A stretch of DNA of 64,000 bases from a virus. Below, one piece after another: positions 17,804-62,229 of the stretch. The stretch covers positions 62,001 through 126,000 of the IMG/VR virus record IMGVR_UViG_3300048592_000962; one strand, 5' to 3'. The position numbers and the translations under genes were made by a program. Position 1 is the stretch's first letter; the number at the start of each line of letters is the position of its first letter. The notes beneath the pieces were generated by a model. It had not been told where the DNA came from. It did not search any database and saw only the letters and a program-made list of their open reading frames with translations.

Positions 17804-18378
17804 ATAACAGCCGAGCACACGCCGTCACCCGCTGACAAGCGCTAGCCAGATTGCAGGCCACAACCGAGACCGCGCCGCGAGCCGCCGCACGATCGACCAC
17901 CGTAATCACCTTGCGAGCCATACGAGGCCCGACACCCGGCGACTACGCGCGAACCGTCAAATACTCGTCACCCGGTGAGCCTTCGTGAGCCCTTCGACCC
18001 ACTTCACTCAGCGGACCATCGCGAGCCGTATCACGCACTTCACCCGAATGGTGTGCGCGAACCGCCCTCTCTGCGAAAACCGAACAGCTTCCGTGAGCCG
18101 TGACCTATCCCTTCTCGTCGTGTCCCCGCGAACCGTCAGTTCTACGTCATCCGAACAGTTTTCGTGAGCCGTATCCCGTGCCTCACCCATCTGCGTGTCG
18201 CGAGCCGTACCACGAACTTCTTCCAAATCGCGTCCGCGAGCCGTGCGAACACCGCCACCCAGCGACCAAACGCGAGCCGTGTCCTCCCCTGCACTCAGAT
18301 TGTCCGGGCGCGCCGCCACTGTCTCGTCACCCGTATGCTCTTCGCGCGCTTGCGTCTGTCGGACACTCCACGTAGTGT
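17804..18378 (+). repeat. 36-nt-period two-block repeat array (TIGR-array-like)
   Basis: Up to 16 units of 36 nt (one of 35). Each well-kept unit has block 1, CGYGARCCGT, starting at 17948, 17984, 18020, 18056, 18092, 18127, 18163, 18199, 18235 and 18271; about 8 variable bases; block 2, roughly CNTCACCCR; then about 9 variable bases. Degenerate units continue on both sides (17804-17947 and 18307-18378). The period, the two conserved blocks and two short variable segments per unit match published TIGR guide-RNA arrays, which are processed to 36-nt RNAs. The frame reading Arg-Glu-Pro per unit contains stops and a frameshift, so it is not an intact gene. No Tas protein was recognised nearby. 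Confidence 0.65.
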
Positions 18379-18391
18379 CTGACACACGCGC
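18343..18391 (+). promoter_or_regulatory. Promoter of glycosyltransferase operon
   Basis: TTGCGT (18350-18355), a 17-nt spacer, TAGTGT (18373-18378), then TGTCTGACA at 18376-18384 and ATG at 18392. The expected transcript leader is only about 7 nt. It overlaps the last degenerate array units, so array and operon transcription may interfere. Confidence 0.5.
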
Positions 18392-19717
18392 ATGGACGAC
18401 ATCAAGTACGACGACCGCAGCGACGACGAGCTGGCCTCGTTGGAGCAGAGCTTCAAGGCGCCTGGCGGCCCGCGAAACTACGTTGCTGCCCCGGCGCCGG
18501 GCTGGGACACCCGTGGGATCTGGCACTGCTTCGACTCCGGCTCCCGCAGCGGCTACACCGCCCACGCGGTCGGCTTGCACTGGGCGCTGAACGAGGAGCT
18601 GAAGATCCCAACGCAGCTCGTTCCGCATCGCAGCCTCGACGTCGACATCGAGCGTTTCCCTGCCGATCGCCAGGACATGCTCTTCGAGTGGCACAAGCAG
18701 GCGGTCGGCCTCCCCGAGCTACTCGTCGTCAGCTTCCCGCCCGAGACGGCGGAAGAGATGTCGGGGGTGCATGGGCGCATTGTCCCCTACTGCGCGTTCG
18801 AGGGCGACAAGGTCAGCTCGCTCTGCGCCCAGCTCTGCAACGGGCCTGCCTTCGCGGAGGTGTGGGTCGTATCTGACTTCGTTCGGAGAGCGCTCCTGAC
18901 TGGAGGCGTTGCACCGGAGCGCGTGCGCACGGTGACACCGCTGCTCTGTGGTGGCCCGTACCGCATGCCGGCATTCGATGCGATCGCGGAGGCGCGTCAG
19001 CGGCGCTCCGAACAGGGCGAGCCCTTCCGATTCGGCGTGATGGGTACCTGGCACAGCCGCAAGGGGTTTCACCAGCTGGTCCGGGCGTACTGGTCTCGCT
19101 TCTCTCGCTCGGACGAAGTGGAACTCGTCGTGCGCACGAGCAATTTCGGTCGCCGCCGCACGATCAAGGAGTTCGAGGGTTTTGTCACGGGACAGCTTCG
19201 AGAGATCGCCGAAGAGATGGGCCACAAGAACTGGCCCGATGCGCGCACCACCGCACGAATCAAGCTCCTCACGGGCACGGCGCTGACCGACGTCGAGGTT
19301 GTCGAGTGGATTTCATCGCTCGATTGCTACGTGAATCCTTCCTACGGTGAAGGGCTCGGCATCCCGCAGCACTGGGCGAAGGCCTGTGACGTTCCGATCG
19401 TGACGAGCGACTGGGGTGCCGTCGGTGATCTCTGTCTCTTCACCGGCGGAGACTTCGTGTTCGAATCGAAACTGATGCCGGTCGACCCGGAGATCCCAAA
19501 GGTCTCTCTGATGTTCGACCGTCGAACCCAGTGGGGCGGATACGAAACGGCTCAACTCGCGCACGCCATGAGCAACGCATTCGAGGCCGGACGACGCACC
19601 ACTCGACACTCGTCGGCCGACCTGGTCAGGCAGAAGTTCGGCGTCGCTGCGGCTTCAACGTCAGCGTACATCGCGTGCACCTCCGTCTCCGAGTCGCTTG
19701 CGAGGATTGCGGGATGA
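18392..19717 (+). CDS. Glycosyltransferase, GT4-like
   Basis: 441 aa. The C-terminal half has the GT-B signature: FRFGVMGTWHSRKGFHQLVR (start of the nucleotide-sugar domain), then VEWISSLDCYVNPSYGEGLG with the E-x7-E-like acidic region used by GT4 retaining enzymes. The N-terminal half carries acceptor-side motifs (WHCFDSGSRSGYTAHAV). Likely transfers sugar to a phage or host surface polymer, virion protein or DNA base. First gene of a cassette with two further glycosyltransferases and a methyltransferase. Confidence 0.8.
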   Translation: MDDIKYDDRSDDELASLEQSFKAPGGPRNYVAAPAPGWDTRGIWHCFDSGSRSGYTAHAVGLHWALNEELKIPTQLVPHRSLDVDIERFPADRQDMLFEWHKQAVGLPELLVVSFPPETAEEMSGVHGRIVPYCAFEGDKVSSLCAQLCNGPAFAEVWVVSDFVRRALLTGGVAPERVRTVTPLLCGGPYRMPAFDAIAEARQRRSEQGEPFRFGVMGTWHSRKGFHQLVRAYWSRFSRSDEVELVVRTSNFGRRRTIKEFEGFVTGQLREIAEEMGHKNWPDARTTARIKLLTGTALTDVEVVEWISSLDCYVNPSYGEGLGIPQHWAKACDVPIVTSDWGAVGDLCLFTGGDFVFESKLMPVDPEIPKVSLMFDRRTQWGGYETAQLAHAMSNAFEAGRRTTRHSSADLVRQKFGVAAASTSAYIACTSVSESLARIAG

Positions 19718-20802
19718 GCGCAATCGTCGACATCGTGGGTCACTTCGGAACCGAGTTCTCATACGCGACTGTGGCGAGCAACGTCGCTCGCGCACTCGAA
19801 GAGCGTGGACTTCTCGGCGTGGCGTCGAATCTCGATCCCAAGTGGCACCCAAAGCACAAGTGGCTGGCAGATCAGACCATGCGAGGGCGCGGAACTCACG
19901 TCGTTCTATTCACTCCGCCGCACCACTACATCGACGCGTACTCTCAGTCGTATGGCCGAGACCGGTCTGCCATCTTCATGAGTCCAAACACCGACACCTT
20001 GTCGGACGAACACGCGCTGACGTGCAGCCAGTTCAGCTTGGTACTGTGCCCGTCCGCGTGGTGTCGGCGCGTGGTTGAGCGCGCGGTGCCGGAAGCGGAC
20101 ACGGCGGTGGTCCCTCTGGGCGTGGACGCGGAGCTGTGGTCTCAGGAGCTGTCGGACGCTCGATTCAATCGGCTTTCCGAGGGCGAGAAGCCTGTTCTGC
20201 TACATCTGAGCAGCGATCAGTTCTGGCCGGGTCGCAAGGGGACAGAGGAGCTTCTGAAGGCATGGAGCATCTCGTCGGCGCGTGATGTCGCGACGCTTCT
20301 TCTGCACGTGCCGCCCGCGCTTCTCGTACCGGCGACCTATTTGCTTCGGCACCTCGACCTGGAAGATTCCGTCGAGGTGATCTCGGGAGAGCTTCGCGGC
20401 GGCGCGTCGTCGATGCGCAACCTTTTCGGCCGGGCCGATCTGCTGGTGGCTCCCTCTCGCTGCGAAGGCTTCGGGATCATGCTCCTCTCCGCCATCTACG
20501 CCGGGCTTCCGCTGCTGTCGACGTTCAACACCGGGCACGCAGACTTCCTGGCGCAGGCACCAGGGGGTTGGTTCGGGGTTCCTACGAGGGACGCGGGCCC
20601 TCTCCCTGGTGAAACGGGACAAGCTCCGATCGTGGAGCCCGAGGCGTTGGCTGCCTCTCTGAACGTCGCGGTTGCTCAACACGCTCTGCTGCGCCTGATG
20701 TGGACGAACAGCTGGCGTGGTGACGAGGCGCTGACGTGGTCACCGCGAGCGCGCGAATGGGCCAGAGTAATCGAACGTTGGACGACGGAGGAAGCATGCT
20801 GA
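19714..20802 (+). CDS. Glycosyltransferase, GT4-like
   Basis: 362 aa, ATGA overlap with the preceding glycosyltransferase. GT-B fold features: IVDIVGHFGTEFSYATVA at the N-terminus, VLLHLSSDQFWPGRKGTEEL opening the second domain, and LLVAPSRCEGFGIMLLSAI, the conserved acidic Glu region. Donor and acceptor cannot be read from the sequence. It probably acts on the same glycan as its neighbours. Confidence 0.8.
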   Translation: MSAIVDIVGHFGTEFSYATVASNVARALEERGLLGVASNLDPKWHPKHKWLADQTMRGRGTHVVLFTPPHHYIDAYSQSYGRDRSAIFMSPNTDTLSDEHALTCSQFSLVLCPSAWCRRVVERAVPEADTAVVPLGVDAELWSQELSDARFNRLSEGEKPVLLHLSSDQFWPGRKGTEELLKAWSISSARDVATLLLHVPPALLVPATYLLRHLDLEDSVEVISGELRGGASSMRNLFGRADLLVAPSRCEGFGIMLLSAIYAGLPLLSTFNTGHADFLAQAPGGWFGVPTRDAGPLPGETGQAPIVEPEALAASLNVAVAQHALLRLMWTNSWRGDEALTWSPRAREWARVIERWTTEEAC

Positions 20803-21808: not shown

Positions 21809-22456
21809 ATGTTCGACCGATCGCGACTCGAAGAGCTGAACGCCGACCACCATCGGCGCATGGCCCAGATGCCATCTCGTGGCAGCAACGACACGAGGGA
21901 TTCCCAGTCTCGCAGCAAGCTCATCGCGGCCGTCCACGGGTGCATCTCGCGACACCGAATGGCTCTCCTGCCGGGGGAGCAGTTTCGCGTGCTCGAACTG
22001 GGGGCAGGATACGCAGGAGACCGGCCGACGCTCATCACGGAGTTCGGGGCCCACTACACTGGTATCGAGGCAGTGAAGCACGTTGCCGAGGCGGCAAGCG
22101 CGAACCTGCCGTCTGGCGAGCCGATTCTGCACATGGCGATCGAGGAGCTGCCTCCCGAGTGGGAAGGGAGGTTCCACCTCGTGTACAGCCGGCACGTGAT
22201 GGAGCACGTCCTCGACGTGGATCTCGCCCTTTCCAACATCAAGCGGGCGCTGGCTCCAAACGGGATCGTCGCGTCGGTCACTCCGCACTACTTCCCCGAT
22301 CCGGAGCCAGCTCATGTGACGCAGCTCAGGATCGAAGAGTGGCTTCACGCGTACAAGCGAGCAGGGCTGACGTCCGTGTACGCGACGATCGAGCACTTCG
22401 CGTGCGAGGAGGCGCACATTCTTGCGGTGAGAGACACGTGGGAGCTTCAGCCGTGA
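21809..22456 (+). CDS. Class I SAM-dependent methyltransferase
   Basis: 215 aa. Motif I (FRVLELGAGYAGDRPTLI, about residues 58-75), an acidic end of strand 2 (YTGIEAVK), motif IV-like LVYSRHVMEHVLDVD and LAPNGIVASVTP are all present and in order, giving a complete small methyltransferase. MEHV is the pattern of Methyltransf_11/23 types. Placed among glycosyltransferases, it probably methylates a sugar or a linked metabolite. Confidence 0.8.
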   Translation: MFDRSRLEELNADHHRRMAQMPSRGSNDTRDSQSRSKLIAAVHGCISRHRMALLPGEQFRVLELGAGYAGDRPTLITEFGAHYTGIEAVKHVAEAASANLPSGEPILHMAIEELPPEWEGRFHLVYSRHVMEHVLDVDLALSNIKRALAPNGIVASVTPHYFPDPEPAHVTQLRIEEWLHAYKRAGLTSVYATIEHFACEEAHILAVRDTWELQP

Positions 22457-23307
22457 TCGTTGTAACGGCGAACCAGGCGCCGACGCTCATGAACATTCTT
22501 GAGCAGTCGTCCTCATGGAAACTGCGATGGGTTCCCACTGCTGATCACGAAGGCGTCAGCGAGATGAAGCTGATGCGAGTGCCGCGATACGATCCCTCGG
22601 ACAGTCCGGTCGCGGCTTTGGTGTGTGCCCCGCATCAGATCGACATCATGAGGACGCGGTTCCCTCGCGCCAAGGTGGTGTGGGTAGCGCACAACGGCTA
22701 CGTGAGGCCAGAGAACCACATGTTCTCGCGAGTCGACGCCTGCCTGGCCTTCAGCGAGAGAGTGGCTTCGCTACATGAGGCGTCGACTGGCGTGAAGACC
22801 TACTTCATCAGCCCCTGGTACGTGCCGTTGCAGTCATGGAAATGGGCGCCGAACCTGTTCGTGACGATTCGCAGTCGGCCTTCGCATCGCATCGACGACA
22901 CGCCTTCGGTTGCGGCGTTTGCGTTGAAGGGGCTTCGTCACGTGTTGTACGGTCAAGATCAGGCCGGTGGATTCATCGACGGGGAGAAGAAGTACGGCGT
23001 ACTGTCCTCGTGCTCCGCGTACGGATCGTTTCTGCATCGCTGCGCCGGATTCGGGCTGGCTGAGCATGAGGCGATGTCTGTTGGCGCTCCGATCCTGGGC
23101 AGCTTCTGGGGCGACATGGAACGCGAGGCACGACTGTACAGCCTGGAGCACAGCATCGACCGTCTGCCGATGCTCGCGAAGATCTTGGCTGAAGACGAGA
23201 GCTTCGCGAAAATCTGCTCTCAGCAGAGCCTCGACTACATCGCCGAGCGCCGGACGAAGGAACGCATGGACCGCAGCATCACGATGTTCCTCGACGCGAT
23301 GGCTTGA
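22453..23307 (+). CDS. Glycosyltransferase-like protein
   Basis: 284 aa from GTG overlapping the methyltransferase stop. VVWVAHNGYVRPENHMFSRV, DACLAFSERVASLHEASTGV and the C-terminal YGSFLHRCAGFGLAEHEAM fit a divergent GT-B glycosyltransferase; the His/Glu-containing last motif corresponds to the donor-binding end. Last gene of the cassette, followed by a bidirectional terminator. Confidence 0.6.
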   Translation: MIVVTANQAPTLMNILEQSSSWKLRWVPTADHEGVSEMKLMRVPRYDPSDSPVAALVCAPHQIDIMRTRFPRAKVVWVAHNGYVRPENHMFSRVDACLAFSERVASLHEASTGVKTYFISPWYVPLQSWKWAPNLFVTIRSRPSHRIDDTPSVAAFALKGLRHVLYGQDQAGGFIDGEKKYGVLSSCSAYGSFLHRCAGFGLAEHEAMSVGAPILGSFWGDMEREARLYSLEHSIDRLPMLAKILAEDESFAKICSQQSLDYIAERRTKERMDRSITMFLDAMA

Positions 23308-23862: not shown

Positions 23863-24851
23863 CGTCGCCTCCTGTTCGCGGTCAGCTTCCCAGCTTCGCA
23901 CACATCGGTCGGAACGGGGAGCCAGACGCCACGGGCGTTTCGATAGAACGCCGCTTCGCAAAGCAGTAGCTCGCCCTTCACCATGACTTCCGGGCGATCC
24001 ACCGCGTTGCGATCTCGAAGGGCCCAAGGGAAGCCCCAAATCACCTCGTCCTTGCCCCCAAAGAGACGGAGCCAGTCCGACGCGATCGTGTCCGCCTCAG
24101 AATCGATCATCAACTCTTCGGCGTAGTCGCTGCCATCCCAGTATTCGATCACAGCGTCAGGAACCAGCTTCTCGACGGCTCTGATGAAATCGGCCAAGTC
24201 ACCTTCTGGAACACGAGACCGACCGACATCTCGAAACGAACCAAGAAATCTGGCATACAGCTCGATCAGCTCTGCCGCAGCGTCCATGTCGTACTGAGTG
24301 CCGAATTCTGCGATCGCCTTGATTTGCTCGGACACCTCGTCCGCCAGCAACTGCTCGATGAGTTTCGTGGGGATCTCGTCCGACTCTTCGTCCCACTCGA
24401 TCTGCTCTACCAGTGAGTCCTCATTGACCATTGACTCAGCCGCTCGGTACTGAGGTTCTAGGTCATGCACACGAAAGGCGACCTGCTCCGCGACGTCGAG
24501 CAGGTAGCTCAGACGAAATGCGACCGCCGGGTTCTTTTGCGCAATGACCCCGTGTTCCCCGTGGAACCCCGACGTGTAGACGTTGCACGGGGTCATGAAG
24601 ATGTATTCGTCGTCTCCTGCGATCTCGTCACGCGGAAAAATGAGCCCTTGTCCGCCTCCCCACTTCTCCCTTGCCTGCGCACGAGGGAGAATCGAGGCCG
24701 CGTCGCGCATCAGATCCATCAGCGCAAACTCGCCTTCGTCGTAACCGGACACCGACGTCAGCACGTGAAAGACAAGCGGATCGTCCTCTGTGAAGGGAAT
24801 CTTCCGCGTGTCGTCGTAGGTGTACCCGACCCATTCGACGTCGCCGCTCAT
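23859..24851 (-). CDS. Acidic protein of unknown function
   Basis: 330 aa. Overlaps neighbours at both ends (ATGA). Aromatic and acidic N-terminus (VEWVGYTYDDTRKIPFTEDD), a helical middle (LIEQLLADEVSEQIKAIAEF) and an Arg-rich end. No zinc, nucleotide-binding or catalytic motif was recognised. Confidence 0.6.
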   Translation of the reverse strand: MSGDVEWVGYTYDDTRKIPFTEDDPLVFHVLTSVSGYDEGEFALMDLMRDAASILPRAQAREKWGGGQGLIFPRDEIAGDDEYIFMTPCNVYTSGFHGEHGVIAQKNPAVAFRLSYLLDVAEQVAFRVHDLEPQYRAAESMVNEDSLVEQIEWDEESDEIPTKLIEQLLADEVSEQIKAIAEFGTQYDMDAAAELIELYARFLGSFRDVGRSRVPEGDLADFIRAVEKLVPDAVIEYWDGSDYAEELMIDSEADTIASDWLRLFGGKDEVIWGFPWALRDRNAVDRPEVMVKGELLLCEAAFYRNARGVWLPVPTDVCEAGKLTANRRRR

Positions 24852-25699
24852 CGGCTTCCCTTCCTGGCCATGTCATGGAGCACGAGCATGACCTGCTCGA
24901 TCACCTGGTCGCTATCCCAGTAGTCGTCCGCGAACTCCACGGGCTCAGTTTGTGCGGGGTGCTTGAAGTGACCGAAGACCAATCTCTTTGCCGCGTCCTT
25001 CACCTGGTTGCGATACCAGCCTCTCGTTATCAGTCGCGGCGATTTTCCGTAGTTGTCCTGCTTGGCAATCAGCCACGCTTCGCTGATCCACTTGACCTCT
25101 TCCGCGCCGTGGCTCTTCACGAGGGCCCGAGCCTCTGCCTTCGACACGGGAGGCGCGTACCTGGCGTTGGACTTCAGTCCTTGCGTTCGAATCAGATACT
25201 TCACGGCGTCAGCCAGTCTCTCGAAGTCTCGCGGCTCCGCGGTGGTCCATGGGACAGCGCGGAAGAAGCTGTACCCGTCGTAGACGGTTCCGACGCCCTT
25301 GCCCTCGATCGTGACGAAGCCGCGATCGATGACCGCACGTAGCGCCCTGCCTTCCACTCGTATCTCCAGCTCGTCTGCCGGAACGAGACGCACGGTCTTG
25401 CGGCCACGTCGGCTCGATCTCTGCTTGGTCGTCCGCCTGCGCTCGTTGGCAATGAGTTCCCGAGCCGAAACCTTCTTCCCTGCGAACACGTTCCCCAGCA
25501 CGGCTCCAACGGACACGCCGACAACGAACCCGGCTGCCATCGTCAAGAGCTGGGTCTTCACGTACTCCCGCATGTCGACCGTCGGCACGGCGACCCAGCC
25601 CCGCTCTCTCTTCGGAGAAGAAAGCTCGTGCAGCAGCGTCGGCGCGACATCGGAAGGGAGGCTCGCGACGGGAGGGGCCTGTCCCAGGTGGTAGGTCAT
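24848..25699 (-). CDS. MTY-start single-pass membrane protein with basic domain
   Basis: 283 aa, beginning MTYHLGQAPPVASLPS. One hydrophobic helix (TMAAGFVVGVSVGAVLGNVF, about residues 52-71) is followed by a basic stretch (ERRRTTKQRSSRRGRK) and a soluble C-terminal domain of about 180 residues. The N-terminus (S/T-Y-x-LGQ) resembles that of the protein starting at 33097. Probably leaderless: TACGAT lies 7 nt before the start. Confidence 0.65.
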   Translation of the reverse strand: MTYHLGQAPPVASLPSDVAPTLLHELSSPKRERGWVAVPTVDMREYVKTQLLTMAAGFVVGVSVGAVLGNVFAGKKVSARELIANERRRTTKQRSSRRGRKTVRLVPADELEIRVEGRALRAVIDRGFVTIEGKGVGTVYDGYSFFRAVPWTTAEPRDFERLADAVKYLIRTQGLKSNARYAPPVSKAEARALVKSHGAEEVKWISEAWLIAKQDNYGKSPRLITRGWYRNQVKDAAKRLVFGHFKHPAQTEPVEFADDYWDSDQVIEQVMLVLHDMARKGSR

Positions 25700-33100: not shown

Positions 33101-34848
33101 GCTACTCGCTTGGCCAGGTTACACCGGTGACGGTGACGAGCGGGGTGGGGGCGCAGATCGCAGCTGCGGCTGCTCAGGTGACGCAGCAGGTCTCGAAGAA
33201 CCGCATCATCGTGCCCGCCGACTGCGCGTCGATCCGAAGCAGCGGCGACACCCTCACCTCATTCGACGCCGCCAAGGAACTCCGCGCGGGCGAGTGGTTC
33301 ATCTGGGCCATCCCGCTGTCTCAGACACTCACGCCAGCACAGGCCTCCGCGCTCACAGGCGCCTTCGAGGGCGCGTTCTTCCCATTCGCGGCACAGTACC
33401 CCGTCAACGTCACCACTCCGTGCGAGCGGGCTATTCGCGATGCGCACGCCAAGAAGTGCAACCGCGAGTCCAAGGCGACATACATCCCTCACAAACAAGA
33501 CAACGCCAAGGTCACCGTCGAAGTCCAGAAGCACAACGAGGAGTCCGCTGGCCCTGCCAAGTATTGGGTCAGCCTTCTGCATCAGTTCACTGGGCCAGGT
33601 CACGACGGAAAGAAATTCTTCGGGTCCACCTATCCTGGTTTCATTGGATACCGAAACGTCGACGGCTCTCCGATGTTCGTCGTCGCGTTCCAGATGAATC
33701 CAGATCCGAAGGTCGACCTGTACGACCAGTCCGGCGCCGTCGCGAGCGGCAACGTGGCACGAGGATCGAAGCCGGTTGTGCGCGCGCTCGTTGCGCAGAA
33801 CCTGTTTACGAACGCACTCAAGCGTGCGGCGGTTCTGTCGAACCTTCCCGGACTGCTGTTCGGAGATCGACCCATCTCGGCGCTGATGAAGCTGAACAGG
33901 GTCACTGTTGAGCTTCGGTTCAAGGGGTCGCTAAAGCAGGCCGTCCGCGCGGGGTCGATGCCGCCGAATCCGATGTCCGCGCCAGATCGGGTGCTCACGG
34001 AAGTGCGAGATCTGCCGACGGACTACCGACTCAACGCAGAGACGGTTCAAATCTTCGACTCTGCCATCGACCAGGCTGCTGCTTTTGTGAACCACGGAAT
34101 CTCGCTCTTCGCGAGTTTGATTGGCGCACTTTTCGCGCAGATCAACGTTCTGTCGAAGACGAACTCCTACGTCAAGGTCGCGTACGCGCAGGCGCAAACC
34201 GTCAACGGTCGACTCGGCGCGGGCAGTGCGGCGGTCGATTCGGCCGCGCAGGTCGATGCGCAAATGCGGGCAGCTGCAAAGGCTCAACTGGAGAACACGA
34301 ACCACTATCTCGCGCTCAGAACCGTGCAGGACCTCCGGCGCCAGCTCGCACGTCTGATCCAAGAGGTGTCCGGCGCGGATGCGTACCTGACACAGACCGT
34401 CGCTGGACTTCAGCAGCTTGCGGTGGCTGCTCGTGACTCGGACGTCTTGATCCGAAAGGGTCTCGACGAGGCCATCGCGCGAGCGCGGACCCATTCGAAG
34501 ATGCACGCGAGCGTGCGTCGGTCCATGGAGTGCGCCGCAATCCGCAAGGCCCGGCGTGAGCAGGAAACGTATCCGGAGCGCCTCGCGGTGATGGCAGAGA
34601 CGCTGGCCGCAGGAGCTGTCGCGTGGGCGGCGAAACGGCCGCAAGCCGACGCGGCGCTGGCCACGTACCGGGCACTGGATGCGTATCTGCAAGAGGTGGA
34701 GAGGCAGATCCCTCTGGCTTGGTGGGCAAAGCCGCTGGGGCCACTTCCGGTCTGGGGGTGGGGCGCAGTCGGCGTTGCCACCTTCTTCGGTGGCGCTGTG
34801 ATGGTGCGAAGGTCTCGAAAGCGGAAGCAACTTTCCGCGAAGACGTGA
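33097..34848 (+). CDS. MSY-start tail-anchored large virion-membrane candidate
   Basis: 583 aa from GTG 33097 (GTGA overlap), beginning MSYSLGQVTPVTV. A beta-rich N-terminal half, a long helical region (about residues 320-520) and one C-terminal transmembrane segment (LPVWGWGAVGVATFFGGAVM) followed by a basic end (RRSRKRKQL). Its anchor matches that of the preceding protein. Best guess: a membrane-associated virion or DNA-delivery protein. Confidence 0.7.
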   Translation: MSYSLGQVTPVTVTSGVGAQIAAAAAQVTQQVSKNRIIVPADCASIRSSGDTLTSFDAAKELRAGEWFIWAIPLSQTLTPAQASALTGAFEGAFFPFAAQYPVNVTTPCERAIRDAHAKKCNRESKATYIPHKQDNAKVTVEVQKHNEESAGPAKYWVSLLHQFTGPGHDGKKFFGSTYPGFIGYRNVDGSPMFVVAFQMNPDPKVDLYDQSGAVASGNVARGSKPVVRALVAQNLFTNALKRAAVLSNLPGLLFGDRPISALMKLNRVTVELRFKGSLKQAVRAGSMPPNPMSAPDRVLTEVRDLPTDYRLNAETVQIFDSAIDQAAAFVNHGISLFASLIGALFAQINVLSKTNSYVKVAYAQAQTVNGRLGAGSAAVDSAAQVDAQMRAAAKAQLENTNHYLALRTVQDLRRQLARLIQEVSGADAYLTQTVAGLQQLAVAARDSDVLIRKGLDEAIARARTHSKMHASVRRSMECAAIRKARREQETYPERLAVMAETLAAGAVAWAAKRPQADAALATYRALDAYLQEVERQIPLAWWAKPLGPLPVWGWGAVGVATFFGGAVMVRRSRKRKQLSAKT

Positions 34849-61792: not shown

Positions 61793-62229
61793 TGCGCAAG
61801 CCGCCCCCACCGCTCAAGCGCGTTGGCTACTGGAAGTCGACGAAGGACGCTCCGAATCCGATCGCTTCGACCGCCACGGAGCTGACGCTCGCGTACCTCA
61901 GCAAGCTGAGCCCCAAGGCCGCCGAGGCGCTCGCGTCACTCGCGGTCGGCATCACCGAAGCCGACCTTCTCGACCCCCGAGCCCTGGTCGACGCCAACTG
62001 GCATCCGCTGGAGAAACAGCTCGTGCTCGCGCACCTGAAGCGCGGGAAGGTCCATCAGGCGTGGATGGGCTTCTCGAACTGCCGATTCTGCGGATGCGAG
62101 AACGGCACGCGCGACATGTCCGACGGGGTCTACGTGTGGCCCGAAGGATTCGCGCACTATCTGCTCGTGCACCACGTACGACCTCCACAGGAGTTCGTGG
62201 CACACGTGCTTCGGCAGGCGAAGCGTTAG
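61792..62229 (+). CDS. Conserved Cys/His protein of unknown function
   Basis: 145 aa. SNCRFCGCENGTRDMSDGVY then VWPEGFAHYLLVHHVRPPQE is a recurrent phage module with Cys-x-x-Cys and His residues that may bind zinc. Overlaps the Gp157 gene. No activity known. Confidence 0.7.
   Translation: MRKPPPPLKRVGYWKSTKDAPNPIASTATELTLAYLSKLSPKAAEALASLAVGITEADLLDPRALVDANWHPLEKQLVLAHLKRGKVHQAWMGFSNCRFCGCENGTRDMSDGVYVWPEGFAHYLLVHHVRPPQEFVAHVLRQAKR

Follow-up and report, generated by a model that had tools for sequence, protein, structure and literature searches.

Anatomy of the array

A periodic array of short repeats occupies positions 17805 to 18350 (+ strand) of the window, the 64,000-nucleotide (nt) stretch of IMG/VR virus record IMGVR_UViG_3300048592_000962 that was analyzed here. 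The window corresponds to positions 62001 to 126000 of a virus contig of 159,872 bp, so that contig positions equal window positions plus 62000. This array, termed array 1, is almost certainly a dual-repeat tandem interspaced guide RNA (TIGR) array belonging to a TIGR-TasA system encoded by a phage. It has ∼14 guide units, all of 36 nt except for one shortened to 35 nt. TIGR-Tas systems, which use guide RNAs and are like clustered regularly interspaced short palindromic repeats (CRISPR) yet unrelated to them, were described in 2025 (Faure et al. 2025, PMC12045711; cited throughout for its main text).

Each unit of array 1 consists of an edge repeat CGYGARCCR, a 9-nt spacer A, a loop repeat CNTCACCCR, and a 9-nt spacer B. 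The ten positions at which the original prediction had placed its first block (17948, 17984, 18020, 18056, 18092, 18127, 18163, 18199, 18235, and 18271) were all exact CGYGARCC matches; these edges define the core units (17948 to 18306) and were the only + strand matches at 35/36-nt spacing in the whole contig. The predicted 36-nt period with two blocks per unit was also retained, whereas the predicted block and spacer lengths were not, as both repeats and both spacers measure 9 nt once the conserved purine after CC is included in each repeat. Likewise, the ∼16 units originally proposed were reduced to ∼14, flanked by truncated edges at both ends. Self-identity at a lag of 36 nt was 0.468 for positions 17804 to 18378, compared with 0.23 to 0.34 at other lags between 25 and 49.

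The 5′ end (17809 to 17831) comprises the truncated edge AGCCG (17809 to 17813), spacer A AGCACACGC, and the first loop CGTCACCCG (17823 to 17831), and scored 7.4 bits at 17805 with the weight matrix described below. Early units (17840 to 17947) follow with edges CGCTAGCCA (17840), CGCGAGCCG (17876), and TGCGAGCCA (17912), and after the core units the last unit (18307 to 18350) carries edge GGCGCGCCG and loop CGTCACCCG, with a truncated edge CGCG beginning at 18343. Directly after this edge lies an 11-bp hairpin, TGTCGGACACT-CCACGT-AGTGTCTGACA (18357 to 18384, + strand; z = −2.3), which is placed like a terminator but is without a T run.

This anatomy corresponds to the dual-repeat type of Faure et al., which has two alternating repeats of 8 to 12 nt with 9-nt spacers between them; the published arrays also have truncated end edges and a rho-independent terminator. 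Array 1 shares the 36-nt unit, the alternating repeats and the spacers, each of 9 nt, edges and loops that both end in box C (CCR), the truncated end edges, a 3′ hairpin, though here with no T run, and the location in a phage genome. It differs in box D, published as UG, which here is CG in the edges and CG, CT, or CC in the loops, mostly CG or CT, making the loops the weaker match.

Arrays 2 and 3 elsewhere on the contig

Two other arrays on the contig, both on the − strand and outside the window, were found to have the same edge and loop as array 1. Array 2 runs from contig position 24377 down to ∼23794 and begins 13 nt after the stop codon of a tas gene, tasA, while array 3 runs from 19602 down to 19379, ∼4.8 kb from tasA. 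Together, the three arrays hold ∼36 guides.

An edge-plus-loop weight matrix was trained on the 21 units of arrays 2 and 3 alone, with array 1 excluded. With this matrix, 13 units of array 1 scored 12.8 to 24.6 bits in a single register, nine of them at least 18.5 bits, while the best scores in Markov-simulated genomes were isolated and ranged from 15.7 to 20.7 bits. Because a matrix trained without array 1 recovers it, all three arrays belong to one kind. These results also bear on whether the repeats might be a CRISPR array, a chance repeat, or some other tandem repeat without guide function. Periodicity would be expected of any of these, but a 36-nt unit with two alternating short repeats and two short spacers is not the layout of a CRISPR array, the independently trained matrix matches array 1 in a single register, and a Tas gene is present, leaving such explanations with a negligible probability.

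Several spacers are near-identical in arrays 2 and 3 (for example, TTCTACATA and TTCTACGTG), and one spacer B, AACTGCGAG, is identical in units 23978 and 19458, that is, across the two arrays; these repeated and near-repeated spacers hint at array growth by duplication. Array 2 also contains a 40-nt unit (contig 24054 to 24014, − strand) whose spacer A, TTCCCCCCCCCTA, includes a run of nine C residues and looks as if it had been lengthened through slippage; the edge pair across this unit is still A-T. In array 1, spacer A begins with T in 9/13 units (17840 to 18342), a bias not observed in arrays 2 and 3.

A Tas protein without a nuclease domain

The original prediction had proposed that the full genome be searched for a Nop-domain Tas gene, and one was located at contig 24390 to 25340 (− strand), outside the window and directly upstream of array 2. 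This gene, tasA, encodes 316 amino acids, and its product was the only Tas match among all open frames of at least 60 codons on the contig. The Pfam Nop model (PF01798) gave no match anywhere on the contig. In phmmer searches against the PDB, the product matched TasR (9mty) with an E value of 2.6e-10 and TasH (21kl) with 1.4e-7, values that improved to 4e-24 and 2.8e-17, respectively, with a ten-member profile; it also matched PHROG 4285 (5.8e-38). An AlphaFold2 model (pLDDT of 74, pTM of 0.70) was compared with the PDB using Foldseek, and ranks 1 to 11 were all TasR or TasH chains, followed by the IS110-family proteins IS621 and ISCro4. The protein shares the Nop-like RNA-binding fold with the IS110 transposases that use bridge RNA and with the box C/D small nucleolar ribonucleoprotein, but is distinguished from them by the lack of a detectable DEDD transposase domain, by guides arranged in arrays, and by the lack of a Pfam Nop match.

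The alignment with TasR starts at residue 32 of the query, opposite residue 123 of TasR, which leaves no room for a RuvC or HNH domain. No nuclease family matched the product, and an N-terminal HNH or RuvC domain of the TasH/TasR type was not found. As the Nop match is preceded by only 31 residues and no nuclease was detected, the protein was assigned as TasA. Residues ∼215 to 255 form an insertion with a DnaJ-like CxxCxGxG motif (Pfam E value of 0.011, below the cut-off), and zinc-ribbon-like CxxC-type insertions were seen at differing places in several TasA relatives, including the Tas proteins of loci L017 and L035; the word zinc is absent from the main text of Faure et al.

According to Faure et al., ParB-like genes (tasParB) share operons with tasA. 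A ParB-like gene was present near tasA (contig 22218 to 23081, − strand), also outside the window, and the combination of a nuclease-less TasA, a close ParB-like gene, and surrounding arrays resembles the published arrangement. In contrast to that arrangement, array 2 and two small open reading frames separate tasA from the ParB-like gene, a candidate tasParB. A second ParB_N protein is encoded at contig 33967 to 34311.

Related arrays in IMG/VR

Searching IMG/VR with an edge-only pattern in three copies matched 52 stretches. These were either TIGR-type units, in which 9 to 10 variable bases precede a second, shifted repeat with CC at its end and A-C edge pairs are absent, or other tandem repeats, in which A-C was common. 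Negative controls were provided by the many matches that turned out to be tandem repeats of the 12-nt type or of other kinds (e.g., CGCGAACCGCGC). Tas genes were present in 9/13 contigs of the TIGR-type class, which was assigned by eye and by record, and in 0/29 look-alike contigs. The nine were G002, G003, G006, G015, G017, G026, G032, and the contigs of L046 and L059, of which G002 and G015 carry the same arrays and are not independent. Conversely, Tas relatives found via the protein nearly all adjoined a 36-nt dual-repeat array, with edges like AGCGAGCCA and loops like AGAAACCCA; an ambiguous case, L097, had a best lag of 33.

In G003 (IMGVR_UViG_3300021560_000014, 105,936 bp; loci L088 to L093), arrays extend over 2.7 to 97 kb with Tas at 88 kb; tas-remote arrays are therefore not unique to the phage carrying array 1. 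Approximately seventeen chains of TIGR units are scattered over this contig, in which a single Tas gene was detected, making it an unusually guide-rich phage.

Covariation between adjacent edges

Besides the box C/D pair, Faure et al. report an extra covarying pair between the different edges of one processed TIGR RNA (tigRNA). The same pairing was observed in array 1, where R6 of each edge pairs with Y3 of the next at 14/14 junctions. The junctions after 17948, 18056, and 18127 are A-T and all others G-C; if three A and three T residues were placed at random over 14 junctions, full coincidence would have a probability of 1/364. Array 2 supplies a fourth A-T junction (24054/24014), and the pair is intact at all 36 internal junctions of the contig. 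When the contig and IMG/VR arrays were pooled (∼250 junctions), A-then-T occurred 7 times, A-then-C 0 times, G-then-T 31 times, and G-then-C 213 times (Fisher test, 1.1e-6), a count whose filter omitted the 18056/18092 pair, which fits as well. Control comparisons within the same edge, with edge i+2, and with edge i−1 each gave p = 1.

The covariation decides between a guide array and a protein-coding repeat. The original prediction had itself raised the doubt that the block variation might mark a decayed Arg-Glu-Pro repeat, as C/T and G/A differences fall at the third positions of CGY GAR CC, and IMG/VR does contain look-alike tandem repeats built on this motif. However, the variation is coupled from one unit to the next, unlike that of free synonymous sites, and such coupling would not be expected from synonymous codon choice. 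The look-alikes are often A-then-C, a combination absent from TIGR arrays, and the same repeat recurs beside a Tas gene. The in-frame TAA (17903) and TGA (18101) and the frame-shifting 35-nt unit at 18092 were present as originally claimed, leaving no open reading frame that spans the repeats, and they also speak against a 12-residue repeat protein. Whether intact or decayed, such a protein is highly improbable; short of a dual role, the presence of a linked Tas gene together with the covariation refutes it.

The TIGR-type array originally proposed is accordingly borne out by the covariation, arrays 2 and 3, the independent matrix, the Tas gene, and the IMG/VR contigs. The edge-pair covariation also provides a sequence-only test for TIGR arrays in stretches such as the window, where no Tas gene is seen.

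Proposed use of array 1 in trans

Array 1 lies 54 kb from tasA on the opposite strand, which sets it apart from the published survey, in which arrays were sought within 5 kb of tas. The system as a whole does have arrays near tas, through arrays 2 (13 nt) and 3 (∼4.8 kb), and the 5-kb limit is a property of the published search, not of the mechanism. The repeats shared among the arrays and the intact edge pairs suggest that array 1 is probably used in trans by the remote TasA.

In the mechanism of Faure et al., the array is transcribed and cut mid-edge to 36-nt guides, which are bound by a Tas dimer, and an 18-bp site is recognized through pairing of spacer A with one strand and of spacer B with the other. 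By analogy, the + strand transcript of array 1 would be cut mid-edge to yield 36-nt tigRNAs consisting of half an edge, spacer A, loop, spacer B, and half an edge. The halves of successive edges would be joined by two pairs, C7-G2 and R6-Y3, closing each guide. A dimer of the TasA encoded ∼54 kb away would bind the guide, and the two spacers would each pair with a different strand of an adjacent 18-bp DNA site. Because it has no nuclease domain, TasA would bind and bend the site rather than cut it, and would act by obstruction. Such obstruction might keep a competing element or a host locus from being expressed, replicated, or inherited.

Several observations weigh against this interpretation. 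The distance from tasA and the opposite strand make use in trans no more than probable. Neither a sigma-70 promoter upstream of array 1 nor a canonical T-run terminator after it was found. Array 1 may be ageing, as degeneration has gone further in it than in arrays 2 and 3; this is seen in unit 18092, whose loop is degenerate, and in the edges at 17840 and 18307. The second loop position, in box D, is G, T, or C and thus less regular than in published arrays. The original prediction had suggested searching the spacer pairs for paired targets, and this was done for 18-bp tandem sites in which spacer A precedes the reverse complement of spacer B, with gaps of 0 to 2. In the phage's own genome no target was found at ≤2 mismatches, and at ≤3 mismatches 9 were found versus 13.9 ± 3.7, a depletion that was not significant; as in G002, G003, and G015, nothing rose above shuffled A/B pairings.

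These features raise the alternative of a decaying array, TIGR by origin but stranded 54 kb from tasA, with its RNA neither processed nor used any longer. Its greater number of edge and loop substitutions compared with arrays 2 and 3, the 35-nt unit with a broken loop, the distance from tasA, and the failure to find a promoter favor decay. On the other hand, both edge pairs are kept at all 14 junctions, with A-U replacing G-C at three of them, a pattern that points to selection at the RNA level, and remote arrays are also known in G003. Decay therefore appears unlikely, and use of array 1 in trans is preferred.

Neighboring genes

The genes around array 1 run in the same direction as the array, which lies upstream of phage glycosyltransferase genes; two consecutive glycosyltransferase-like genes follow it directly at window positions 18392 to 20802. 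Scanning the window detected no Rfam match and no tRNA, and no IMG/VR relatives were found for two genes neighboring array 1 or for two other large proteins. Elsewhere on the contig, an SNF2-type helicase gene (127265 to 130486, − strand) is split by an intein with a LAGLIDADG-like domain.

Implications for TIGR-Tas biology

The TIGR array is confirmed with high confidence, and its remote position is a feature beyond the description in the main text of Faure et al.: within one phage, sets of guides may lie dispersed at long distances from the Tas protein that would use them. It is an evenly balanced possibility that phage TIGR systems are distributed more generally, with one TasA served in trans by several arrays across the genome on either strand, the guide sets maybe lying in operons of different timing. 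If so, array 1 would be one such set, and searches within 5 kb of tas would miss it. The natural role of TIGR-Tas is open, and Faure et al. regard the natural targets as a key open question; this contig offers a compact case, with one nuclease-less TasA, three arrays, and ∼36 guides. Since arrays can be remote from tas, surveys centered on tas miss part of the guides, and natural targets should be sought starting from all arrays.
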